Shown piece after piece: positions 102 through 19,202 of a stretch of 64,000 nt of DNA (its first letter is position 1; each line of letters starts with the position of its first letter). This stretch comes from Punctularia strigosozonata HHB-11173 SS5 (lineage: Eukaryota > Basidiomycota > Agaricomycetes > Corticiales > Punctulariaceae). The translations under genes were made by a program, and so were the position numbers. The DNA is taken from contig NW_006767433.1 in assembly GCF_000264995.1 (NCBI RefSeq), forward strand, positions 1,644,876 through 1,708,875, read 5' to 3'. The notes below the pieces were generated by a model that was not told where the DNA came from, searched no databases, and worked only from the letters and a program-made list of their open reading frames with translations.

Positions 102-496
102 GATGAATGTCAGAGTCATGCACGAGCCGCCAGCGCCAGCACCATGAGATTCTTCACGTCCTCCGGCGGCGGTCGGGGACCGCCAAGATCTCGATCGTTG
201 CAACCAAAATACTTCCGCATGCCCCTATCCGTGTGGCGCTCGATGCTTCCGGTCGTAGGGCGAATGCTGGCGGCCATCTCGTCAAAAACAGCGGCAGGCG
301 GAGAAACGACAGTCGCCGATATCGTCGAGGGATTCTAGGGAGGGTCTGCCGTCACCTTGACGGGAGCACGAGAGCGAGGGATCTGCGCGTGGGGAGAATG
401 CAGGCCAGCAAACGCAAATTACGAACTAATTTCGTTCAGAACCCCGCCTCCGCCCTCGAATCTCGACGTGCGTCGGCGTTCCTCGGCTACGCCAGG

Positions 497-614: not shown

Positions 615-1168
615 ATGGCTTATGCCCCGTACCAGCTCAGGCTGCCCACCTACCGCGGCTCATGGCAGCGTCGCTACCACCCGTACCCGCGGTACCACCC
701 TTCGGTTCGCGAGCAGGTGGACCCACTCATGGTACGTTGCAGTTCGCCTGATGATGGTCCCAAATTTCATCGCAGTCCAGCAAACGGTCGATTACCGGTA
801 TTCGCAACCGCCGCCACGCCCTCCTCCCCGACCATTATTCATCCTAGTTTTGGTGCGTATCATCTTAGGCGTCGTGCAACGGCGCTTATAACCTCGTCTA
901 TAAGGCCCCGATTGACGAGGTCGACGAAACCATCGACAACCTCGAAGAGGTAGTCCGCCCCGAAAACGCCGCGCGAAGGGACAGCACGCTCAAACGGCGC
1001 CCCAGTCTGACTGGGCTCGTAGTCGTGAGTCGTTTCGCCCAACGCTGATCCATCGTCTCTGAAGCCTCTTGCCAGGATCTGGCTATCCGTCTCGTGCTGT
1101 GGCGCCGTCGCCGTATCACCGTCGTCCAGAATGCTGGACCGGACGCCAAAATCGACTTGCTGGAGTGA
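615..1168 (+). CDS. unknown small protein, WQRRYHPYPR family, copy 1
   Basis: Function unknown. Exons 615-731, 781-852, 905-1024 and 1076-1168 join into about 133 residues. All junctions are phase 0 with GT donors (GTACGT, GTGCGT, GTGAGT). The N-terminus carries WQRRYHPYPR, followed by a VDYRY segment and a proline run, then an IDEVDE acidic segment; copies 2 and 3 (near 6.6-7.3 and 18.5-19.2 kb) share this order and the first two intron positions. The C-terminus is shorter and more diverged than in the others: it keeps a VVQ-x3-GP core but lacks the SSWGYG block. The first exon is exactly as long as in copy 3 (117 nt). This may be a degenerating or specialised copy. No signal peptide or membrane segment is obvious. 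The third intron is the least certain boundary. Confidence 0.6.
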
Positions 1169-1767
1169 AGAGCGCCTCCCATGTTCGTCCATTACTTATT
1201 GCGCGTCCGCTCCATACTGGCTGTGGTTCTGTAGAATAATTTTGGCATTATCCTTTCATCATAATTCTTGAGGTCGTCATTCTTTGATTCCGCTTCACAC
1301 TGTGTCCTAATGCTCGCTTCGCTCTTGAAGAACCTCGCTCCTTTCATGTACATATAGAGTGCTTTGCTTTAGTCTCGCAGCAAAAAAGCGTTCCAGTTGC
1401 TTGGAACCAGGAATACATATGTTGGTTCCACCGCGAGCAGACGGCTGCAATGCGTGACCCAAGTGCAAAAGACGAAACCGATGTGATTATAGATAGCAAA
1501 ATAGAGCGTCCGGGGCCCGATACGGTAGATGCTGACACGAAAAGACAGGAATTAATAAACGACGGAAGGCAGCTCGGCTGCACGAGCGGTATACTGGGTG
1601 AGACCGCACGACGTCATGAGGGGTCACAATGCGGATTGCAAGGGTGTGCGGAAGGGTATGTATGCATATGAGCTACTACGACTCAGGCGGGTGACAATAT
1701 TGAGAGTCCAGTGCGAGGGAAAACCGTCAATAGTACGTATTTACTGATGGTTGACGTCTTTCTGCCT
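1169..1767. other. intergenic, nothing recognised
   Basis: This 3'-to-3' gap lies between copy 1 (plus) and the chitin deacetylase (minus). Short open frames exist but show no recognisable motif, and I see no RNA gene. Confidence 0.5.
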
Positions 1768-3511
1768 TTACAGGAGGACGACGACGAAGCCCGCGAGGAC
1801 GCCGAACGCGGCAGTCGCGACGGCCATTTTCGAGCCGGGTGTGAGGGCGATCGCGGCGGACGAGCCGGAACCGCCGGTCGCAGACGCGGAGCTCGAGCTC
1901 GCGCCGTCCGTGTTCTCCGCCGAGCCGGGCGCGCCGGACGAGAGCGTGGCAGGGCCGCCGGACGCCGCGGGCGGGTTGGTCGAGTTGTCATTGAGCTCGA
2001 TGTACGCGTCGCTCATGGGCTTGTTCAAGCAAGAGATGACAGGCTTGAGCGTCAAGTTGGGCTGGAAGGCGAGCGCGTCTGGCAAGATGTAGCCGGTAGC
2101 CATGTCGACCGTCTGCGCAAAGAGGTCGTGCTCGAGGACGATGAAGCCCGTGTCGATCTGCGAGGCATTGCCGAGGATGTTGTTCCAGTTCTGGATGACT
2201 TGTTGCGGAGTTGCGAGACCGCCGGGAATGCTAAAGTCTGCAAGACGTCACCGATGACGTGAGTAGGACAGGGATGCGATTGGCTTCGTAGATCACGTAC
2301 CGTTAGTGTCGAAGGTTGCGGTAGCGCTGATACGCGTCCAGATGACTGGGGTCAAACCCATAGCCAGCGAGATGTTGCGGACACGGTCACTGAGTGATGA
2401 TCAGTACCGTTGCAAGGCTCAGACGGCAAAACACCTACTCGATGTCTCCGTATGGCGGGCGCATGGTATTGGGGGTCACACCGATGATATCTTTTATGAG
2501 CTTTTTGGTCCATCCGAGTTCGGCGATAATTTCCTCGTTGGTCTGTGAAAATTTGTCGGGACCTCATTTCCATCACACCGCAGGCGTGTGCACAACGTGA
2601 CGACGAACCTTAGTGGTCAGCTGCGGGTGCGACCAGGTGTGCACGCCGATTTGGTGGCCCGCCATGTATTCCTCCTGGAGCGACGCGGGGAGACCAAGCG
2701 CACGCGAACCAATCGAGAAGAAGGTTGCCTTGATGTCATGCGCGTCGAGGTATTGCAGAAGGTTAGTCGAGTAAACGGACGGGCCGTCATCGTAGGTGAC
2801 GCCCCAGGTGAACTTGTCTGGGCAGGTCGTAACGTCCGTTGTGCGCGTGCAGGTGCTGCACGTCCACCAGCACCGCTCTTCGGCTTCGGCGACGGCCTCC
2901 GGGTTCGCGGGGCACCCGCCGGCGACAGTGACGTTGAAATCGGGAATGGGGATGCCAGAGTTCGCGACCTCTTGGATCCACTGCTGGACCTCGGGAGAAT
3001 CGGTAGGAGGAGTGACGTCCATGGGAGGATAGTTGGCCCCGATGACGGTCGCCACTGCCAAGACAACCAGTCAGCTAGGTCGCTCGGCTAGATAAGATCT
3101 TCGCTCTTACAGTTCGGGAGACCCGGGGCAGACATGTAGGTTGGAGTAGCGCCTGCGGTCCATGTTGTCGACAAAGGAATGGTCGACGGCGTGATGGTCC
3201 TGCAATTTCACGTCGCGTTCAGTTCGGTTTCCTGGGTGCAAGGTCTGTTGGCACCATACTCACCCTGACGAGATGTCGGACAAAGGCACGGCCGTCGGGT
3301 TCGTCGCGAGAAGCGAGACGGATGGGGTCGGCACGACGGTCGACGGTCCGGTCGATAAGCCCGAGTTGGATGGAACGGCAGTCGCCGCTACGGACGAAAC
3401 ACCGGACGACGGAGCCTGTCGTGCATGCAAGTGGCGCGCGCCGTGGGCGGCGACGAGGGGCGCAGCGAGGGCGACTGCGCCGAGGAGGGCGTACGACGGA
3501 CGGTGAGGCAT
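1768..3511 (-). CDS. GPI-anchored chitin deacetylase (polysaccharide deacetylase family)
   Basis: Removes N-acetyl groups from chitin to make chitosan in the cell wall. Exons (minus) 3264-3511, 3111-3199, 2609-3054, 2439-2542, 2301-2389, 1768-2237 give 481 aa. The ATG at 3511 starts a signal peptide (LLGAVALAAPLVAAHG). The NodB domain shows TYDDGP (motif 1; phenylalanine is more common where Tyr sits), HTWSHP (motif 2, metal histidines), RPPYGDIDDR (motif 3), PVIWT (motif 4) and VLEHDL (motif 5). The C-terminal 80 residues are Ser/Ala/Gly-rich and end in a hydrophobic tail (VLAGFVVVLL), as expected for a GPI signal. Length and layout match the Cda proteins of basidiomycetes such as Cryptococcus. 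A cysteine-rich insert (CWWTCSTC) precedes motif 1. Family is sure; substrate is inferred. Confidence 0.93.
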
Positions 3512-4036
3512 GGGTGCGGACGTCGGCGAACGGAGAGAGCGTGGAGGAGGTTCGTCGTGCAGGCCGCAGATGGGAGACCTCGTCTCTAATAGGCGATGCG
3601 GGGACGGCACGAGTCTTGCCGGCACTATTCTCGGTGTCGTCGTTCGAACTTCGCACCCCCATGCGGCTTCGGTCATCATTTTCAAGCCGCCGACGGCGCT
3701 GGGGTCCATATTATTATTCTCTACTGGGGTCTCACTATCATATTTTCTGTGTTCAGTTGCTCTCATTAGAGTGTATCTGCAGGTGGTAAAAGTTCTCCGC
3801 AGTGGTCAAAGATGTCCGCGGGGAGCCCCGCCAAAAAATGCAGTGTATGGTGAAAGTTCCACCCCACTTCGCCGTGCTGCAGATACACTCCATTTAGGGG
3901 CTTTTGATCGGCTTTTTGATGGCGCATTAGTTTATGACAACGGGCACAGTACATCGTAGAAGCAATTGCGAGCAGGCTTCCTCAGGTTACAGGGAGAGAT
4001 ACTCAGGCTGGGTATACAACAAGCAGTGGGCAGAAT
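3512..4036. other. intergenic, holds a small inverted-repeat element
   Basis: Between the 5' end of the chitin deacetylase and the 3' end of the SET/NAP gene, both on the minus strand. Apart from the inverted-repeat element at 3769-3890 I see no gene or RNA. Confidence 0.5.
3769..3890. repeat. MITE-like element with 14-bp terminal inverted repeats
   Basis: GAGTGTATCTGCAG at 3769-3782 is exactly inverted at 3877-3890 (CTGCAGATACACTC). The flanks read CATTA on the left and CATTT on the right, which could be an imperfect target duplication. Size (122 bp) and structure suit a miniature inverted-repeat transposable element, but no second copy was found in the window, so it could be a chance or regulatory palindrome. 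Confidence 0.35.
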
Positions 4037-5090
4037 CTATGCCGTTTTGGTCTTTTTCGGCCGGGGCTTTTCCAGGTCAATTTCCTCGGCATCGTCGTCG
4101 GAGTCGTCCTCGTCGTCATCCGAGTCGTCCTGGTCATTCATATTCCCGAGGAAGTAGTCGATGGCCTCTGGGAAAACCTCATTCGCGATCTGCACGCCAA
4201 TCTATGGAAAGCAGGACAGGTCAGCCTGAGAGGACGAATTCAAGTGGGGGCGGTGCTCAAGCTTACGTCGAAGGGATCCTCGGCGATCTCAAAGAAGTTG
4301 AAGAATGTGCCAGGCTCAGCGGGCAGGTCGTCCTCGACGTCGTCCGTAACGCGAGGGTAGCGCTTCGTCAGGTTCTTTGAGTCGTCCTTCCAGTTGATTT
4401 TGTATGCCTGCGGACGACATGCGGTGTTAGCGGCTCCCGCTCCTTTGTTCCGATTTCAGAAAACCCTTGCCTTGGGCTCGACGTCGCGCTCCCATGAGAA
4501 GTCAAGCATGGAGGCAGTGATGCCCTCCTCGTCGGGCTTTTCGTTCGCAGCCGCGGGAGGGGGAACGTACTTGAACTCCTTGGTCAGGACCTTGTCGCTG
4601 AAGAACGGGTTCTCCTTGAAGTGCTGCAGAAATAACGACGCGTTTAGGATATTGATCACCAAGAAACTGTCCGAAAAACGCACGAATTCAAGGGTGAATG
4701 CCCGCGTCTCAACGGGGTCGCGGATCATCCACACGTCCTCAAGGTAGCTCAACGCAGCTTGGTCGGTGTTGTGTTGCGCGTGGATGGCGATCATGGGGTG
4801 ATTCATGAGCGCGACCGGCCAGAACTTGGGGATCGCTTTCACGACCGCCCGGCGCTTTTCGTAGGTGGTCAGGAGTTTGGCCTGCGCTTGACGCTCTGCA
4901 CAACAGTCAAACCCGTATGTAAGCCGGCGAGTTACAACTGAAAAAAAATGTAAAACGTACCAAGAATGAGCTCGGCGCGCGCAATGTCCTTTTGGACCTC
5001 TTGCAGCTTGGCAGCGTCCTCGTCGCTCAACTCCACATCTGCGAGCGGGTTCTTCTCCACCTCCGCGCCGGCTTCGCGTTTGACACCCAT
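4037..5090 (-). CDS. SET/NAP-family histone chaperone
   Basis: Binds histones and assists nucleosome assembly in the nucleus. Exons (minus) 4961-5090, 4684-4895, 4471-4623, 4267-4407, 4037-4201 give 266 aa. An N-terminal helix (LQEVQKDIARAELIL-like) is the usual dimerisation helix; KFWPVALMNHP and the earmuff-fold segment DFSWERDVEPK follow. The C-terminus is a long Asp/Glu tract ending in a basic KPRPKKTKTA tail. The size fits SET/TAF-I and Vps75 better than full NAP1 (about 350-400 aa). The intron after residue 165 has a GC donor (GCAAGG at 4470); only this restores EPKAYKINW. The start at 5090 faces the TMEM205-like gene across about 300 bp. Confidence 0.9.
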
Positions 5091-5394
5091 TTTTTCTTGT
5101 TAGTTTTGTGTTGGACTAGGAGGTGTTGGGAGGAGGATGGGAGCGAGCTGTGTTGTTTCAAGCCGCAGAACAAATAGCCCTGGAAAGTCGGCAGCTTTGA
5201 ACTTTCACAGTACACCGGCATCCGAAATTTGGTGCACCGCTACGCCCTCGCACGTGAGTGGCGTCACCGCAAAGGATTCCCCTGAGTCCGGACTCCCGTG
5301 CGTACGGTTGTCGCTTCTATTACTCACTTTGCTACTTATCTTCCGGGGCTTGTTCTGTCCTGCTTACGACTTCAACCACGACTACGACGACGCC
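5091..5394. promoter_or_regulatory. shared divergent promoter, SET/NAP and TMEM205-like
   Basis: The 304 bp between two divergent start codons must hold both promoters and 5' leaders. No clear TATA box is visible. Confidence 0.5.
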
Positions 5395-6287
5395 ATGGCC
5401 AAAGCACTGTACCTCACATTCGCCACCCTGACAGACATCCTTAACCCCAGGTCGTTGTACTTGGTATTGTACGGATGGCTGCTCGGCATGTGTACGTCAA
5501 CCTGGCACGCGGTCATCCCGCATATGTACTAAGCTAACAAACATATTGCACAGCGCTTTGGGTGACCTTCTTTGGAGGTTCGTCTGATGTTCTAACATTC
5601 GGAGTGTGTGTTGCCGTCAGGATTCTAACCCGGCCGCACCATGATCAGGTTTCATAGCCCTCAAAGCTTTGCGTGAGTCGAACTGAACACCCGCTTGGGC
5701 ATCTTCGCTGACTCGCAATGCATCTGCTACGCGCATCCAGCCCGCCACCAATTCGGCGCACTCCAGCACCGGACGTTCCCGGTTTACTTCTCGGTCTCGA
5801 TAGCGCTCTCCACCATCCTTCTGCTTATGTGGACCACGACCCATCCGGACGTACTCTCGTACATTGCCAAGCCCACTCACGTTGACGTTGCCCAGGCATA
5901 TGCGCTCGCCTTCGTCTTAGTCAACCAAACTATCAACCAGTTGGTCGTTGGACCTCTCACGAGCCGGTAAGGGTGTTGAAGGCGTGCGCCTGCGTAGAGC
6001 TATCCAATCTGACTAGCACGGCGTCCGCAGAACCATGTTCCAGCGCCACAAGCTCGAGAAGGACGAAGGCAAGAACTACAATGACCCTGCCGTACGTGTA
6101 CTCAAACCTCTCTTCGCCCGAGCCCTTCTCGACGCTTCCGCAGGCCTCGGACGCCATGAAGGCGCTGAACCGCAAGTTCGGCATGCTGCACGGCGTTAGC
6201 TCGCTCTGCAACCTCGGCGCCAATCTCGCGCTTATCTTCCACGGTCTATGGCTCGGTCATGTCAACACGGCTCTCAAGGGGTATTGA
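5395..6287 (+). CDS. TMEM205-like (DUF4149) membrane protein
   Basis: A small multi-pass membrane protein; animal TMEM205 is linked to secretion and cisplatin resistance, while the fungal role is unknown. Exons 5395-5491, 5554-5577, 5649-5672, 5741-5966, 6031-6091, 6144-6287 give 191 aa. Hydrophobic segments lie near residues 5-45, 70-90, 100-120 and 165-185. Typical family landmarks are the opening LYLVLYGWLLGMSLWVTFF, the conserved FGALQHRTFPVYF and the late MLHGVSSLCNL. Two consecutive internal exons are only 24 nt each, yet the frame and family match hold across them. Its 3' end converges on copy 2 of the small-protein family. Confidence 0.85.
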
Positions 6288-6619
6288 AAAGGGTATTTGC
6301 ATATCGTGCTTGTCTGAATGTGTGAAATGAACCAACCAGTCATTGAATGCGCATCTATTCTGTACATTAAAACTGATGTATATATGCTGTGTGTCAACCG
6401 AAGGAGCTGGTACGTCACTGACTATGTGTACAATCGAAAGCAAGGGCAACTTAACTAGCATCAAGAACTTTAGTATACAAAGGCCAAGGGAGTGTGTGCT
6501 GGGAGGCTTGAGACTTCTGGAAAGAGTCACGACGCACGGGAAGGAGTGCACCTGAGGCAAACTATGCGCTTCGAGAATGATTGGTGGGGTTCTGCGTGCC
6601 AATGTTCGGTCACCGAGTC
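6288..6619. other. convergent 3' gap, nothing recognised
   Basis: This stop-to-stop interval lies between the TMEM205-like gene and small-protein copy 2 and presumably holds both 3' UTRs. No gene is seen. Confidence 0.5.
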
Positions 6620-7261
6620 TCACTGGCGTAGAAGGGAGAGCAGCGTACAATCAATGAGTTCGGGCTCGGCAATCCTCGGTCCGCAAATCTGGACGACTTC
6701 GTGCCTATCGCCGTGTGCCAGGTAGAACGACGCGCCTCCGAGGAAGAAAAGATGTCCGAACGCGGCCCCGTACCCCCACGAGCTGAGGATATCGTAAATA
6801 CGCGTCGCGAGCGACTTCTTCGTGTCGTCTTGCTCGGAGACCTTTCTGGAAGGTCCGGGCTGCATAGAGGTCGTTTCCTGTGTGTCTGTCGCATTTTCTG
6901 CGACAGGGGCGTCTTCGGGAAGCGTAGGCGAATCCGGGCGATTGGTCGCTTCCGGGAGCTCCTGAGTGAGGGGCTAGAAGGGAGATGAGCGAAAGAGGTG
7001 AGACATGACCGAATGTCCACTTGCCACAGTAACAAGGAACGTGGGCACCGGCGGCAGCGGCTCGTAGCGGTAATCGACCGTATTCTGGCACACCACACGT
7101 CAGTCGGGGAGCGCCGATCATCGAGAGAGATACGTTACCATGACTGGCGGGGAATAGATTCTCTCCCTCGTAGAGACTTGGTAACGGGGATACGGGTGGT
7201 ACCGACGTTGCCATGACCCACGATAGGCAGGAAGACGTAGCTGCGACTGTTCCTGGGCCAT
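6620..7261 (-). CDS. unknown small protein, WQRRYHPYPR family, copy 2
   Basis: Function unknown. Exons (minus) 7139-7261, 7025-7084, 6620-6973 give 178 aa; both introns are phase 0, at the same places as in copies 1 and 3. The protein begins MAQEQSQLRLPAYRGSW, then RRYHPYPRY, NTVDYRYEPLPP, an acidic/threonine-rich middle, and the C-terminal block ILSSWGYG, FYLAHGDRHEVVQICGPR. The second intron starts with GCAAGT instead of GT and ends TTCTAG; splicing there is needed to join the two conserved halves. A TATAAGG box stands about 100 nt upstream. The same C-terminal block, with clear residue-level similarity, recurs in copy 3. No known domain is recognised. Confidence 0.75.
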
Positions 7262-7356
7262 TGAGAACGCAGGAGTTTTGCTGTCGACGTTGGAGAATGG
7301 GCAAATGAAGAAAGCTGAGGGGAAGGGACGATAAGGCCCGTCATCCCCAAGGTTCC

Positions 7357-7363
7357 CCTTATA
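7357..7363 (-). promoter_or_regulatory. TATA-like box upstream of small-protein copy 2
   Basis: TATAAGG on the minus strand lies 96-102 nt before the start codon at 7261, close to the spacing seen for copy 1. Confidence 0.5.
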
Positions 7364-10300
7364 TTGCGAGTTAACCGAGACCTCGCACACATGTTGCCGC
7401 GCCGAGGTGAGAGGCGGCGTTCTGAGCGAAAAAGGTTAGAAAATTTGCGATTAGGGCCCGTCTTCTGCCCACGCGTCCGGATCCATGTCACCGCACCGCT
7501 GCTCGTTTACGGCAGCCCCCTGGACCCCGCCTCTGGAACTTCCGAACTTCAGGTCGGGCTGGCGCCGCAAAGGTCTCGAACTGTCGACGGATTTACTTGC
7601 GCGACGGTTGTCTGGGGTTGCCCCTCAGTAGAGGAAGCGGAAGCAAATACGCAGATACGATCGGGCCGTTGATGACGATGGTGCCGACCATCGTACACGT
7701 TCCTCGACGCGACCGCGCTGAGGAGCGGGACTGTATCACTCTGCACAACAGATTGTGTCAGCTAGGAGCTCATGCAACGTTCTCTGGATGCTCAGGATTC
7801 TGGGAGGAGTCGCGGGGACGTGGCCAAAGTTCCCCAGGACTCAGACTATCTCTTGCATGCATCCCGAACCCGCACGCGGTAGCACCTCCCTCCGCCGCCG
7901 TCCTCAGCAAGAGGCTCTTCTCGTCAGCCACCGTCTACGACGACGCACGTAGCAGCATCGCCCGAGGGACAACGGCAGCCCGTCGCGAACGACGCACACC
8001 ACGGTGGAGCATGGGACGTGTGACTGTGCGCGTGAGCGTTACATCACGTGTCACGCTCGCCCATTGATGGCGGTCTGGGGCGGCGAGTCATCCTTCTTCA
8101 TGAACTCTACGTTCCGCATGCCAACGCCGCCAAACACAGACCCTGTTTATCCTGCTCAACGAAACGAGTGTGCGACTGCTTCAAGACGGAAGAAGAGAAA
8201 AACAAGGCATCCACCCATGAAAACGAAATGAAGGCTACACTTCAGATGTATCCGGGAGTGTGAAAACGCCATCAAATAAAATCAAGACACCAAGACCAAA
8301 AAGCAAGAACAAGAGAATGATCAAAGACAGCGGGATGGCACACACCTAAGCGTCCTTGTAAGATCGCCAGTCGACGTCGGCTTGCTGCCCTTCCGAAGCG
8401 GGCGATGTTCTTGAAATGCCTACCCGGCGCGGGGTGCCAGCTGCTTCCATCCAAGGCCAAGCAACGAAGAAATCATCGAGTTGTAAGCGATTGCTCCCCG
8501 CAAAATATCCGGTGCCTTGGTTGTCCATGGCTGTCGTCAACGGTGGACAAGCCGGCATGCGAAGTACACAAGATAACCGTCATAGAGTGCATCAAGCTAT
8601 CCAGATCTCGCGGTGAATGTCCTCGTCTGGACCTCGGAAAGTCGTCTACGTGACGCGGGCGGGTGTTGCCAGTTGTCCGTAATGCAGGCCTATTTTCGCG
8701 CAGGTCGGGGGTGGCATCACGATTTGTCGAAGACTTGACGGTTCAAAAATTGCAGGTACACATCGACGAGCTCTCCGTCGATGGTAGAATGCGCCCGACA
8801 ATATTGCAGGTGAGTGTCGCTCGTTGAGGTTGAGGTGAAGGTCGACTACACGCGACGGCGGAGTTCAACTTTCTAGCCACAGTCAGACGGGAACCGCCTG
8901 GAACCGCTCGCTATCGATGACCTCTCAGTGAGCTCTACGCCCTGCATCTGCTGCTCAAACCTCAGCCCCACTCGCTGTCGTATTGGGAAGGCCGACGCCA
9001 CTTCTCGTGCCAATTTTACCGGATTTCTAAGAAGAGCAATGCCGCCCGCAAGCGGTCGGCCTACCTACGGACGGTGACTACGACTCTCGTGCTTCAAAAT
9101 CACCGTCTTTATTTCCTCCTACGTGGACCAAGAAGAAACAGGATCGGGGGCCTAGTCAGCGGCCGAAAGTCGGTACTGGACAGATGTGTTGAGTGGGACA
9201 TGGGGAAGGCAGGGGCGCATGTAGCACCGAGGAACTGCACGTCGAGTGCACCCTCCCGGAGGCAGATGGATACTACTCATATTCCGGACAGTCCCTATAT
9301 TTTTTGACCGCAATCAGATAAGTTGCCTGTTGCTCGCATTCGCACATTTTCTCTTCCTTCAAAATGTTCCCTGTTCGGATCCGTTTTCCAGGCAAGACGT
9401 CTTTGTCCGCTGTCCTTGTACCTGCATAATCATTTATTGAGATGTTAACCGCCCTATGCAATAGACACCATCGACTCCTGCTACCGTTATCTACGATCCG
9501 TACCAGTAATGATGAGAAACGAAGTCACTGAGGATATCCCTTTGGTATCGCATTTCCGAGTATGGCAGTCGAATCAAACATCCGTTCCCAACGTCCCTAC
9601 GTCCCTTGGCTATGTGCAAGTACGCCCATCCATAATACGATGCGACTACACTGTCGCTTCTGTGGCGGCGGCCATCCCTCATTTTCTCTCGGTGAGTCAT
9701 TCTGATTCGGTACCGGGTCCCAGCGCGGGCCGCAAGTTCCCGAAAAAGGTGTTCGTCGGTGTACTGGACCTGCACTTTCTTGCCACCACTCCGAGGGACA
9801 CGAGACCGTTTGGTCCAGCTACACGGCCGTCGACGTATTTGTTGGTCCGCCCTCCTGAAACAATATGCCCTAGTGCGCTTCGCCTATCGACGCAGCGCGA
9901 AAAATCAAAACCTTCGCGGAATATTTCGAGTGTCATAAAGTATGACAACAATATCTGACCATGTACTTGCGATGCGACCCTTGTACGACGCGATGATGCA
10001 GGGCGAGCTTATAAGGACAGGAACGAAATATAGTCTGACGGTCGCCCCCCATGTCCGCGATGACCATTGAGCAATGGCATGCATGATCAACGCAGTTGGT
10101 GCAAGTGTACACGCAACGCAGTGTCCGGAGGACCAATAAATGCATATGATCATAATGATACAAAGGTGATGCGCTGAGCGCAACGGATGAAGCGATCGTA
10201 CGCAAAGCGACGTCACTGGTATCGAACACCGTCGGGGCGATTGCCATCTGCTTATCCAAAAGACACACCGGGCCATATCTACAGAGGCGCGCGGGGCCGG

Positions 10301-10375
10301 ACACACTGGGCCTGAGACGAAGGCGCACTGGGCCGGAAGGAAAAGCCGCTGAGCTTGGCCCGCTGGGGAACACTG
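7364..10375. other. 3-kb interval without a supported gene
   Basis: Several open frames of 60-150 codons occur on both strands, but none has a recognisable motif or a consistent exon chain. On the plus strand near 8754-8940 two short exon-like blocks are bounded by good splice signals (GTGAGT after 8811, GTGAGC after 8928) and read VHIDELSVDGRMRPTILQ and SDGNRLEPLAIDDLS. No chain into a longer protein could be built, so this may be a gene remnant or a non-coding transcript. Confidence 0.3.
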
Positions 10376-12885
<2,510 letters not shown>

Positions 12886-13210
12886 CGCGACGGACGGCGG
12901 CGGGGCCGTGGTGATATTGCTATATATCCGACGGCGGTGCTCTGCGGAGGATGCTCGCAGAGGCCGTCGGATGCGTAGTCATCGAGCGCCGAGTCGCGCA
13001 TTGCTCCTTGCGGTTCATTATCTGGCGATTGCCGAACTGGGACTGCGTGCGCGATCTCCGTCACGTGGCTGCACCCAGGGCGAGTTCGGGTGGGCCGCGC
13101 CACAGGCGAAGGGCTTATCAGGCTGACAGCCCGCGCTGACTCGCGCACCGTCCGACGCTCGTTTGCCCGCCCTTCACACTCCTCGGTCCCGCGAGACATT
13201 CCCCAGGTGA
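12886..13210. promoter_or_regulatory. shared divergent promoter of two kinase genes
   Basis: The 325 bp between the start codons of the Fray-like and SRPK-like kinases. TATATAT-like sequence occurs at about 12920 on the Fray-like side. Confidence 0.45.
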
Positions 13211-15337
13211 ATGGCATCAAAACAGGTGCGCCCCCGTGTCCGAGCCAGCCACGTCCGACGCCGCCCTGTGCTCATCGCCGCACGCGATACCGTCATCAGA
13301 TTGCCACCACTCAGCAGCAGTGCTCCAAGTACAAGTACGTCGTCACCCCCACCGGGCCCAAGATCCTCCCCGTCCCCGAACCTTCGTCGAAGGACGAAGA
13401 GTCCCCCGCAGAATACAACTCGGGAGGTTACTTACCCAGTCCGTCTCTTATCTCGTGTGCCGCGGAAAAAACGGTTATCGATCCTCCTTTCCTGTTTCAG
13501 TCAAGGTAAAGGATACTTTTAAGGACGGACGCTACCATGTCCTGCGCAAACTAGGGTGAATACAAACCCCTCTCCCCTCTATCTCGTCTTCTTGCCCATT
13601 CTGACGGCCTGCAGTTGGGGCCACTTTTCCACCGTGTGGCTCGTCAAGGACACGCGCGAAAACCGCCACTCAGCCCTCAAGGTCGTCAAGTCCGCCGGCC
13701 GCTACGCCGAAACCGCCCGAGATGAGATCAAGCTCCTCCGCCGCGTCGCCGCCGGACCAACGTCCCATCCAGGCCGCGAGCACGTCGTCGCCTTCTTCGA
13801 CGCTTTCCAGCATGTTGGTCCGACCGACACGCATGTATGCATCGTTTGTGAACCGCTAGGCGAGAACCTGTTGAGCTTGTTGGAACGCAATAAGAAGAAG
13901 GGCGTTCCGATCAATCTCGTGAAGGTCATAGCCAAGCAAGTGCTGCTCGGCTTGCAATATCTTCACGATGAATGCGACCTAGTACATACGGATATCAAGC
14001 CGGAGAATATCAGTGAGTCACAGATTTTTATGTTTCATCCGCACAGACCGTTCTTAAGCCCTGCCGCGATAGTGATTTCCATTCCGGATGTTGAATCGCA
14101 CATCCAAGCGGAGCTTTCCATGTCGCCGTCCCCGACTTCGCGGCGCGTCGGTGTGCCCTTGCCGACCAAGACCCGATCTGGTGTGCGGATTGCCCGTCCC
14201 GCCAACCAGGCACGCGACGGCCATTTAGCCCGGCAGGTCGAGATATTCGACTCGCAGCCGCTTTCTTCGCCCTCCACCTCCGCCGGCTCCTCGCCGCACG
14301 TTCGCAGAGGCCTGCAGATGTCCAGCCTGAGTCAGAGTCATACCGCGGGCACCAGCACCGCGAAGGCCAACTCGCACTCGGCCCCCAGCTCGGTGAGCAC
14401 GACGCCGGCGTCGATCGAAAGCGTTCTGGTATCAGCCTCGGTGGCCGCTTCGAGCACGCCACCGACGTCGCTGGGGAGCGAGATGTCCAAGCTAGCGTTG
14501 TCCTCTACCAGCCCAGAGTCCGTTCGCCCGACATCCGGCTCTGAGGCGTCTGTTTCTCCCGTTGAATCTGCGACCGCCATACAGCCACACTGCAGCGAAG
14601 CGCTCGCGAAACCTTCGGGGCCTTCGCTGCTATCTCAAACCGCCCCTTCACGCGAGCACCAGTTAGAAAGCGATACCCTAGCCGCTCCCACGCCCTCTGT
14701 CGCCACATCCACCACCATCACCCCAGTTGGCACCACCGCACCCACTCCCGTGCCAGCGTGCGAACCGACCCCCGAAGAGACCCTCCCGCTACCTCCAATT
14801 CCGCCAATATCCGTCAAGATCGCCGACCTCGGCAACGCCACGCCTACCAAGAAACACTACACGGAGGACATTCAGACCCGCCAATACCGCTCGCCCGAAG
14901 CGATCGTCGGTCGTTCCGACTGGGGCCCGAACGCGGACATCTGGTCGCTCGCCTGCGTCATCTTCGAGCTCCTCACCGCCGAGTTCCTGTTCGACCCCCA
15001 GGGCCAGGGCGAGCTATTCACCAAGGACGACGACCACATGGCGCAGATCATCGAGCTCCTTGGCGACTTTGAGCTCGAAGCCAAGATGCACGGGCGATAC
15101 AGCCGCGAGATCTTCGACAGCACTGGCTCGCTGCGCTACATTAAGACACTCAAGGTGTGGCCGCTCGACCGCGTGATGGTCGAGAAATACCTCTTCAAGG
15201 AGGAGGACGCGCAGGCGTTCTGCGCCTTTATGCTCCCCATGCTGCAGCCCAACCACAAGAAGCGGGCGCAGGCTAGGGACATGATCGACCACCCGTGGTT
15301 GGACGTGAGCAACGTCACATTCGATGAGCCGTGGTGA
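13211..15337 (+). CDS. SRPK-type SR-protein kinase
   Basis: Phosphorylates arginine-serine repeats of splicing and mRNA-export proteins. Exons 13211-13225, 13300-13438, 13501-13555, 13615-14012, 14073-15337 give 623 aa. The start was chosen because exon 1 (15 nt, MASKQ) joins in frame to the family's usual lead-in EEYNSGGYLP-I-KVKDTFKDGRYHVLRKLGWG-type sequence. Motifs: GWGHFSTVWLV, ALKVVKS, HTDIKPENI, then a spacer of about 245 low-complexity Ser/Thr/Pro residues (about 203-449) splitting the kinase as in all SRPKs, then VKIADLGNAT, RQYRSPEAIVG and DIWSLACVIFELLT. The C-terminus DHPWL is typical. Spacers in this family control nuclear-cytoplasmic location. Confidence 0.95.
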
Positions 15338-18300
15338 ACACACAATCATGCTACGCTGAATGCCGAACAAACAAACAAAGAAATCAGCTCAACGCGCAAC
15401 CTACCTCCATATAATTTATTGGGTCCTCTGCGCGCCGCTTTCCTGGTCTCAAGCCACCCAACGACGAACGACACATTCCGGCCCACGACACGTACCCTAA
15501 CCTGTACAGGTAATCCGTATCTTATTCGCTCCGCCATTAGAGCAGCTCCCGGGTGGTGCCGCGGCGGAATAGAGACGCCGTGCACCCCGCCTCCAATTGT
15601 TTCCATAACGCCGCTTTATTATTTGCCCCCCATTCCCCATTTCCCCTCCCCCCTTTCCCCTCGAACCGACCAGGTGTTCCGATGTCGTCGCTCGCGCGCT
15701 GTTTTATCGTTATTCCCGCGCTTTTTTCTTCTTCTTCCTCCTGGGTTCCCCTGCAGGTGCTTACGAGCTGTGTGGTTCGCGATAGACTTTCTCCGTGCCT
15801 CCGCCCCTTTAGAACTGTTTTGCCCTTTCCTTTTCTCTATATACCTGGGCCTTGCGTACCCTGCGCGCGCGCCTGTGCTTCTCCTTTGTTGTTTATTCCT
15901 TTCAGTCGTCTCACGCTTCTCAAACAGTCTGCGCATTGTTGTATCATGCCAATTCCTATATCGTGCAATATAGTTTTGATTATGCTCTACACCTGAGAAA
16001 TGGGTGGTAACCTGATGTTAATTGGTCACATAATCTTGCAAACGATGCTGATTTCAACTCGGATCCACGGCGGTAATGCAGAGTATTTATCGCTGCGAGC
16101 TAGACGGTGATGACATCCGGGGCGTCAACATGAGATGGGGAATGACAGACAATGTGGTACCCCGGGACGAAAGCCGGTCCAAACAAGTGTTGATAGAGGT
16201 ACTCTGGCCTCGGTTTGGCCAACGACCAGACAATGAAACGGACGACTCAGCTGATATCATGAGGTTGGGGAGACCGAAACTGTGGTGATGACTGTCTGTG
16301 TGGTGCTCACGGTGTGAATACACTATTCAGCGAAGTTGGCGGGTTTCTGTACTTGCGCGAGAGTTTCTGGTTGGTGCGGGACCGGGGAGATGGGAGATTC
16401 TGAAAGGGCAGTATTGAGCGAAGGCACGTCTGGAAAGAGAAGAGGCAGAATCGCATATCTGTTGGGAGGGACGGAATCGCATATATGGACAAAACTCGAC
16501 GATTCGTACCAGGCTTAGTTGACCTTGCCCTCGCATTTGTGTCAGAAATGTTCAAGCCACACAGAGCGGCTGCGTCGCTCTTCTACTCCGCACGGCCCGT
16601 CCGCTCCTGTTCGCTGACGGTTGGATCTGCTATTTTCGGCAGGTTTGACGGGTGACGGGCGTTCGAAGTGATGTTGACTTTATTTTGGCCTGCGTATCGA
16701 AGATGGCACGGTGAATGGGCAGTGTAAGAGGCAGGGAGCTCGCGGGGAGGAACAGCGCCTGACGGGAGGAAGAAACGCCTCCTGCGGAATTTCTCCAAGG
16801 TGGCGGCGACAAATATTCTGGCAGCGAGAACGAAGCGGCGAATCAGCGTAGAATTGTACCAGGAATTGCAGGGGGAGACAAAGACCGCAAGGCCGCAGAG
16901 AGCGAGGGGGTTTGGCCCCTATCAACGGGCTAAAACGTTCAACTCCGCCCTCGCGTGGGGGGTCGATCTTGACCTCGACCGCGACGAGCGCACCCGCATC
17001 CTTTTGTGCTGGCTGCTTTGGCTGACCGGAGGATAGTCTGTTGCCATGCGCTTGCAATTTTTGAGCGGCTAGACCTTCGGTAAACGGGCTCGCCACCGAC
17101 ACGCATCGACCGAGCGCGGACCATGGGTCGACGACGCTCACCACGACCCGGCCGTTGACTGACCAATAGATGCCTTCGTTCTTGCATTGGGATTTTTGCT
17201 CTTGCCTTTGACGCACTCGAAGCCCGACGTCTTCTACCAGCGCTGATACCAGCTACCGCCAATGGGACGGTAACGGACACCAGACCAACTGGACGACCTG
17301 GTGCATCGGACGAAATACTCACAAACCACCGCCGAAATATTGCGACCGGATATCGTCAAGATCCATTGGACAACAGCGGCCAAGAGCGGTCTCAGCTTAT
17401 CGCCCGTTTCGAGGGGCAGGACGGTGCACTGGCGTAGAGGCAGACAGGGTCGGTCTCACAAGTCTCTTGAGGTATGTGCCAATATTCTCTTGCATCTTTC
17501 TTTTCAGTCGGCGTTGTTCTTGCTCTTGCGTCGAGGTACTTGACAGCCTCGCGCCATTGCACGTCACACTCTTCAGGATGTGTCCTTCTGTCCAGTTTCT
17601 TCATGGCGTTTCTTGTGCTTAGGATTGAGGTCGCTACCTCGTCTTGCGGTTTTTCGGGCAACTCAGCACGAGTAGGGGTGGGGGCCATGGCTGGATTACA
17701 GGGCGTCGTCGTGGTTGGAAAGCAATGTGACGCGGTCCCGACGCCCGCCATCAATCGGCGGTGCGTGACGTGACAGGGCGCACGTCGAGTCACGGAATTC
17801 CCAGGCTCGGACCCGAGCGCGCGTCGGTGTCCCGTATGGCGTGCAGAGGTCCAGATGGCGATGAGGGCTGGCTGCAGGCTAGGGAGGACCCAAGTGGTCT
17901 GTGATGATGGCTGGAGGGGTTCGGTTCGACCGCCTCTGTGGAGTCGGCTTTTCGTCAGAAAGCCCTGTAGTCAGTGGTTGAGCCCAAGCTGAACCGGGCT
18001 CTAGCCTCCAGGAGTTGCTGCAGGCGGCACGCGTATGCATGACGCTGACATATCCACAGGTTCCAGTCAGTCGAGCTCGTCGCCATAGAGTACCGACTCG
18101 CCCATGAGTCCGCCCAGTCTTCGCGGTTGTCGCCAAGGGCTTCTGTCGATTTGCTTCCGCGCCGCGCCAGTGACCGGGCCCCATGTGGCGTGTGTTGACC
18201 TCGCGAGGGCGTTGAGAGCCAGACACAGAGCCAAGTCGATGACAGTCTTGGGAGCCCTCAGTCGTTGTTGCCAGAGGGAGGTGTCGTAAACGACGGCGCG

Positions 18301-18524
18301 CGGTCCGAGCATGGCAGATCTGCGTGGGTGGAAGCCGGGCTCGGGCGCAAATTCCGCACCGTTATGGTTTAGACCGCGCCGCCGATGCTCCCCGGCAGTG
18401 GGTTCGCGAGCCTCGGCTGGCCATCTCGTAAAACGGCTGCCAACTTGCCAAAATGCCGCCCTCTCTTTTTTTCTCCCTCCCTCCCCCCCTCTCTCTCCGG
18501 CCTTCGCCTCCTTCATCGTTCAGC
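15338..18524. other. 3.2-kb interval without a firm gene
   Basis: The first part (to about 16000) is pyrimidine-rich and probably includes the SRPK 3' UTR. On the minus strand at about 16680-17700 there are three protein-like frames: one starting MAPTPTRAELPEKPQDEVAT (near 17690), a short one reading MDLDDIRSQYFGGGL (near 17330) and one containing LVSALVEDVGLRVRQRQ (near 17230) that runs on past GIYWSVNGRVVVSVVDPW. They could be exons of an unrecognised gene, but I could not join all of them in phase. No family is recognised. Confidence 0.3.
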
Positions 18525-19202
18525 ATGGTTTTGGAAGTTCCCGAAATGCGGCTCCCCAGCTATAGGAGCGCATGGCAGCGTCGCTATCACCCTTACCCCC
18601 GTCTCAGGCCTTCTCTTAGGGAACAAATGGGGCCGACTGAGGTTTGCGTGCCTCTCGTTTGTTTATATGCGCTCTGTGAACTCGTCTTTTCGCACCAGCG
18701 GCCAACGCTCGATTATTTTCCGCAAGAGGCGCCGCCCCCTCCGCCCGCTTTCTTAGTGACCTTGGTAGAGGAACATTGTGCACTGGTTCTATCATTCACT
18801 TATTCGGATGATTTGCAGCCCGTCATTGATGAGGTCGACGAAGAAGAGGAAGATTCCGAGGGTACTCCGCCATCCGACACCGATGATATGTCGAAGCTCG
18901 GGGACACGAAGGCTCTTGCGCGGCGTATTCACGCCATACTCAGCTCGTGGGGGTACGGCGACGCATTTGGTTGTCTCTTCGACTTCGGGAGCGCCACGTT
19001 CTACTTAGCCCAGGGATGCAGACACGAAGTCGTGCGTATCTGTGGGCCCAGGGTGTCCGTACCGGAGCCTAGCCCTTGTGAGTGTACGAGCAGCCGCGTT
19101 CTGCCTTCCCATACTAAGTCGCCGAAGACAACCATAGTAGATTTTCATTCGCTCCTTGCCCTTATGAAGAGGCGTAACGGGGACTACGCTCGACGTCATT
19201 GA
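18525..19202 (+). CDS. unknown small protein, WQRRYHPYPR family, copy 3
   Basis: Function unknown. Exons 18525-18641, 18699-18764 and 18819-19202 give 188 aa; both introns are phase 0 and sit at the same positions as in copies 1 and 2. Order of parts: MRLPSYRSAWQRRYHPYPR, LDYFPQ followed by a proline run, the acidic IDEVDEEEED stretch, then RRIHAILSSWGYGDAFG and FYLAQGCRHEVVRICGP. Exon 2 to exon 3 could also be read through without splicing, but the aligned copies support splicing. A GTGAGT at about 19079 could be a further donor, so the last 40 residues are less sure. Unlike copies 1 and 2 there is no TATA-like box; a C/T-rich tract precedes the start. Confidence 0.72.
   Translation: MVLEVPEMRLPSYRSAWQRRYHPYPRLRPSLREQMGPTEVCVPLVCLYALCELVFSHQRPTLDYFPQEAPPPPPAFLVTLVEEHCALVLSFTYSDDLQPVIDEVDEEEEDSEGTPPSDTDDMSKLGDTKALARRIHAILSSWGYGDAFGCLFDFGSATFYLAQGCRHEVVRICGPRVSVPEPSPCECTSSRVLPSHTKSPKTTIVDFHSLLALMKRRNGDYARRH

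Follow-up and report, generated by a model that had tools for sequence, protein, structure and literature searches.

We report that a 64,000-nucleotide stretch of the Punctularia strigosozonata HHB-11173 SS5 genome (contig NW_006767433.1, positions 1,644,876 to 1,708,875; hereafter the window) harbours three small paralogous genes, here c1, c2 and c3, that very probably arose by duplication at the DNA level and encode proteins with constrained N- and C-terminal blocks. Comparison of the copies shows that the duplicated unit is larger than the genes themselves and includes their introns and upstream DNA. As a whole, we favour, with some reservation, the reading that segmental duplication produced a family of paralogues that are under constraint and probably co-regulated, and whose products are soluble and adaptor-like. 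A small unnamed paralogue family is ordinary in kind; the unusual part is the conserved upstream architecture.

Gene copies and constraint on their products

The three genes are spread over 18 kb, and their exon-intron models were built by hand from the sequence:

615-1168 (+): c1, 133 amino acids; exons 615-731, 781-852, 905-1024 and 1076-1168; GT-AG introns; without the SSWGYG core
6620-7261 (-): c2, 178 amino acids; exons 7261-7139, 7084-7025 and 6973-6620
18525-19202 (+): c3, 168 amino acids when spliced; exons 18525-18641, 18699-18764, 18819-19077 and 19138-19202

These positions and strands agree with the first-pass annotation of this DNA, which had described three copies sharing WQRRYHPYPR, and the string is identical in c1, c2 and c3. 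According to that annotation, introns 1 and 2 also occupy equivalent positions in the alignment of all copies, in phase 0, and the hand-made models agree; c2 intron 2 (7024-6974) needs a GC donor (gcaagt), picked because it is located at the aligned intron place, and c1 and c3 use GT there. Intron 3 of c3 (19078-19137, 60 nt) is optional: the open frame runs through it, both readings stop at 19202, and retention gives a protein of 188 amino acids. The C-terminal SSWGYG...HEVV.ICGPR, likewise ascribed to copies 2 and 3, is common to c2 and c3; SSWGYG is present in these two only, and HEVV is found in them and at one unrelated site, 48364 (-). Profile and BLAST matches join c1 to c2 and c3.

A fourth copy was not found in the window with tblastn (best non-family E-values 0.011 and 0.023 among the matches listed), and all eight pieces that a profile of the three proteins listed in the window at E 1 fall in c1, c2 or c3. 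Comparing the six-frame translations of the window by blastp at E 1e-4 gave five pairs, four within the family and one being an antisense reading of the C block, and no other duplicated protein. Scans of viral contigs and bacterial/archaeal genomes gave 25, 54, 9 and 29 pattern matches, none of which was confirmed as a relative. The earlier remark that no known family was recognised is borne out by the lack of any meaningful score in Pfam, NCBIfam, PHROGs, PDB sequences or Rfam: the best Pfam-A matches (Dendrin, E 0.034; Lycopene_cycl, E 0.17; for protein pieces FeoB_C, 0.075, and QCR10, 0.094) are all below cut-off, NCBIfam gave zero matches, the best PHROGs match (E 0.14) indicates no significant family, PDB sequence searches returned nothing or E-values of 0.53 and above, and Rfam had none at the gathering threshold and one chance match (E 2.3). 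In the literature searched no mention of the WQRRYHPYPR string was found.

Nonsynonymous and synonymous differences (dN and dS) were counted by NG86, as follows:

N block, c1-c2, 55 codons: dN 0.285, dS 1.82
N block, c1-c3, 55 codons: dN 0.43, dS 1.25
N block, c2-c3, 56 codons: dN 0.43, dS 1.69
C block, c2-c3, 49 codons: dN 0.17, dS 1.59
Middle, c2-c3, 33 codons: dN 0.82, dS 1.09

The resulting dN/dS ratios are 0.16-0.34 for the N block, 0.11 for the C block and 0.75 for the middle, and they are rough point estimates, each pair comprising 33-56 codons at dS values close to 1 or higher. The N and C blocks are under constraint, the acidic middle hardly so. Given the low dN/dS in the two blocks, c1, c2 and c3 look like real proteins.

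Since purifying selection is seen at dS above 1, the copies appear to be old, which favours an alternative to the lineage-specific gene proposed in the first-pass annotation: the family may be conserved but unannotated and spread over many related fungi, with three local copies here. We lean only slightly against this alternative. It also draws on the 172 conserved unannotated orthogroups that one study reports among those specific to complex multicellularity in mushroom-forming fungi (PMC8893723); c1-c3 are like such families in being small, without known domain, constrained and present in several copies. Were the family widespread in related fungi, it would represent a protein family as yet without a name, strongly conserved in two blocks and amenable to genetics and structure.

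Upstream DNA and the mode of duplication

Upstream of the genes the following elements are similar between copies (positions relative to the ATG are given with a minus sign):

386-458 (+): c1 proximal promoter block, -229 to -157; GCGTGGG...CGCAAATT...TTCAGA.CCCGCC
7403-7475 (-): c2 proximal promoter block, -214 to -142
18322-18391 (+): c3 proximal promoter block, ends approximate and taken from the alignment
8050-8090 (-): c2 middle upstream element, -829 to -789; CGCCATCAAT
17728-17769 (+): c3 middle upstream element, -797 to -756; also listed among the inverted pairs
8710-8878 (-): c2 distal upstream block, -1617 to -1449
16928-17097 (+): c3 distal upstream block, -1597 to -1428

The proximal block, approximately 150-230 bp before the ATG, is common to all three copies. 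Between c1 and c2 it has 74% identity over 74 columns (blastn, E 7e-8), and for the interval -150 to -260 none of 500 shuffles reached the score in any of the three pairs, the pair scores being 187, 117 and 168 versus a maximum of 97 for 300 random window pieces. The c3 block was unlisted by blastn at E 0.01 and is inconspicuous in the two-way global c2-c3 alignment (27-30 of 60 per alignment segment). The signal is less clear in the nearest 150 bases (6, 1 and 41 of 500 shuffles across the three pairs), and the intervals -260 to -420 and -420 to -614 are background-like, being indistinguishable from shuffles (33 to 452 of 500). TATA-like boxes precede c1 (497) and c2 (7358), which are two of the four exact matches in the window; by the same exact-match scan c3 has none. 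Judged from the shared promoter block, the three copies are probably co-regulated.

Further upstream, the c2 and c3 distal blocks are 64% identical over 171 columns (blastn, E 3e-13), with a score of 66.7 bits versus a best of 29.7 for 200 shuffles and 26.6 for 83 real pieces of the window. Moreover, the score of the 42-column middle element near -0.8 kb was reached by one of 500 shuffles. Measured from the ATG, the positions of these elements in c2 and c3 are offset by only approximately 20-32 bases. For c1 the upstream flank inside the window is 614 bases, and its distal flank lies beyond the window edge. On the divergent strand the letters of the c2 and c3 distal blocks were observed to be partly alike.

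Codon periodicity is absent in the distal block (differences by phase 15, 15 and 17 in the longest run), its frame is shifted by indels between c2 and c3, and neither Rfam nor ARAGORN found anything for the upstream blocks; the simplest reading would be that it is a regulatory or RNA element. Alternatively, the c2/c3 upstream blocks are non-regulatory and were duplicated as passengers, being remnants or exons of a second gene that is read divergently, or of an RNA gene. This is conceivable because the distal block keeps the frame-1 letters VAS.F.E.L..QKLQ.H....LS, and LV.VEVK on the divergent strand, and because a 190-amino-acid open frame is present at 16683-17252 (-); however, differences are even by codon position (15, 15, 17; 1, 3, 1; 2, 2, 2), the indels shift the frame between the two blocks, Pfam is blank for 16683-17252 (-) and Rfam has nothing above threshold, and we consider this alternative unlikely. 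Read as regulatory DNA, the conserved upstream blocks would constitute a small, clean case for the reach of such DNA in compact fungal genomes.

The duplication proposed in the first-pass annotation, local, involving both strands and followed by divergence, can thus be extended to the introns and upstream DNA, which were carried along. Positions and phases of introns 1 and 2 are shared by all three copies, which speaks against copying through RNA, and the flanks are similar too (the promoter block in all three, the distal block in c2 and c3), which settles duplication at the DNA level. Each duplicated copy would have taken its introns and promoter with it, and c2 and c3 still share elements out to approximately 1.6 kb; c3 probably diverged first, with c1 and c2 being the closer pair by the N block.

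Some comparisons were set aside. For the c2 and c3 flanks, a long alignment with gaps was discarded on account of too lenient gap costs, as were the whole-flank upstream scores (0 of 300 for each pair), which had been obtained with the same costs; for the downstream flanks lenient scoring resulted in 39, 47 and 0 of 300, the zero belonging to c2-c3 (197 versus a maximum of 194). We attribute to chance a 40-nt GC-rich match (E 4e-4) that links the c1 region with the far c2 flank.

Movement by a transposable element would be consistent with copies dispersed over 18 kb, on both strands and amid unrelated genes. We regard it as very improbable, given that the two longest inverted pairs (159 and 91 nt) and the longest direct pair (81 nt) listed for 1-24000 are the gene copies themselves and that the other repeat pairs listed there are 44 nt or shorter.

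The short copy c1

It had been claimed that c1 keeps a VVQ-x3-GP remnant of the C-terminal block. A candidate remnant is located in the right place, but its spacing is VVQ-x2-GP and the statistics are weak: the ungapped protein score of the c1 last exon was reached by 152 (c2) and 166 (c3) of 5000 shuffles, and at the DNA level this exon alone was matched by 43 (c2) and 281 (c3) of 500. It was not listed by a profile of c2 and c3 at E-values up to 10. We therefore treat VVQ..GP in c1 as a weakly supported C-terminal remnant.

With c1 being nearest to c2 in the N block, the SSWGYG core is probably missing from c1 through a later, derived loss. In the three-way alignment the donor of c1 intron 3 falls over the SSWGYG codons of c2 and c3, and since this intron sits where the other two encode SSWGYG, the coding stretch could conceivably have become intron. 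Scored from exon 3 through exon 4, c1 exceeds all 500 shuffles versus c3 but is reached by 341 of 500 versus c2. Taken separately, intron 3 was reached by 479 of 500 shuffles for c2 and 136 of 500 for c3, and the 3' half by 125 and 23 of 500, respectively, and intronization was retained as no more than a speculative reading.

The absence of SSWGYG and the slight resemblance of the last exon to the C block would also fit c1 being a pseudogene in decay, or a fragment of a gene whose 3' reading frame is open by chance. However, c1 has kept an open frame across four exons with GT-AG introns, its N-block dN/dS versus c2 is 0.16, and it has retained the promoter block and the TATA-like box; a pseudogene or fragment is therefore improbable in our opinion.

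Predicted protein architecture and neighbouring genes

A full-length predicted structure of c2 was uninformative (mean pLDDT 43.1; best match to known structures E 1.2). The C block modelled alone, built from two sequences (c2 and c3), gave a mean pLDDT of 70.4 and a pTM of 0.54, with a helix at 2-20 and strands at 25-32, 35-42 and 45-52. A helix followed by three strands is like part of the roadblock/longin fold, and roadblock or related proteins (7yh1, 7f8m and 6wj2) are among the weak matches to the C-block fold. None of these is significant, most of the alignments having an rmsd of approximately 10 angstroms or more, and at E ≤ 0.001 none of the 581 PDB structures listed matched the model (best E 0.58).

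A transmembrane-like stretch is absent from the three proteins, the top 19-residue hydropathy being 0.97, 1.14 and 0.96. We infer that they are soluble proteins whose N-terminal docking motif, basic and aromatic (net +4 or +5), would be joined by a flexible proline and acidic linker to a small C-terminal alpha-beta-beta-beta module. Such an adaptor would bind one partner by WQRRYHPYPR and another by the C module, and c1, which has the motif but lacks the full module, would act as a competitor for the first partner. This two-ended, soluble adaptor role is put forward tentatively.

According to the report on Snowball (SNB1, DUF6533), that family is of unknown function with no mechanism assigned and has several paralogues, four in Coprinopsis cinerea (PMC10949477). 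In being a multi-paralogue family of unknown function it is comparable to c1-c3; in contrast, SNB1 has seven predicted transmembrane helices and c1-c3 no transmembrane-like stretch (hydropathy 0.96-1.14), and Pfam reported no DUF6533 match for their proteins.

A more far-reaching reading, to which we attach little weight, would make c1-c3 a co-regulated set under a conserved upstream architecture, with the promoter block in all and with the c2/c3 elements at approximately -0.8 and -1.6 kb, kept at near-constant spacing despite near-saturated silent sites, representing either an enhancer-like element acting at long range or a non-coding RNA element, in a compact fungal genome; c1 would then be a derived short form, its SSWGYG stretch perhaps intronized, and a natural competitor of its paralogues.

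Of 30 open-frame pieces searched against Pfam, ten matched at E 0.01 or better, one of the kinase matches being below cut-off. The gene content and the short introns are consistent with a basidiomycete source. The Pfam-matched neighbours are ordinary genes: two kinase loci, a Rieske protein beside c3, NAP, SacI-domain pieces, NPL4, a mitochondrial carrier and a methyltransferase. A large inverted duplication including both kinases was considered and rejected, their best mutual match (E 0.005) covering 29 residues of a stretch usual in kinases; the two kinases are not close paralogues of each other. The kinase genes, at 9936-13271 (-) and 13523-15334 (+), are arranged head to head in the interval that separates c2 from c3. 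Finally, open frames at 1768-3070 (-) resemble, by the motifs TYDDGPS and HTWSHP, a GPI-anchored polysaccharide (chitin) deacetylase.
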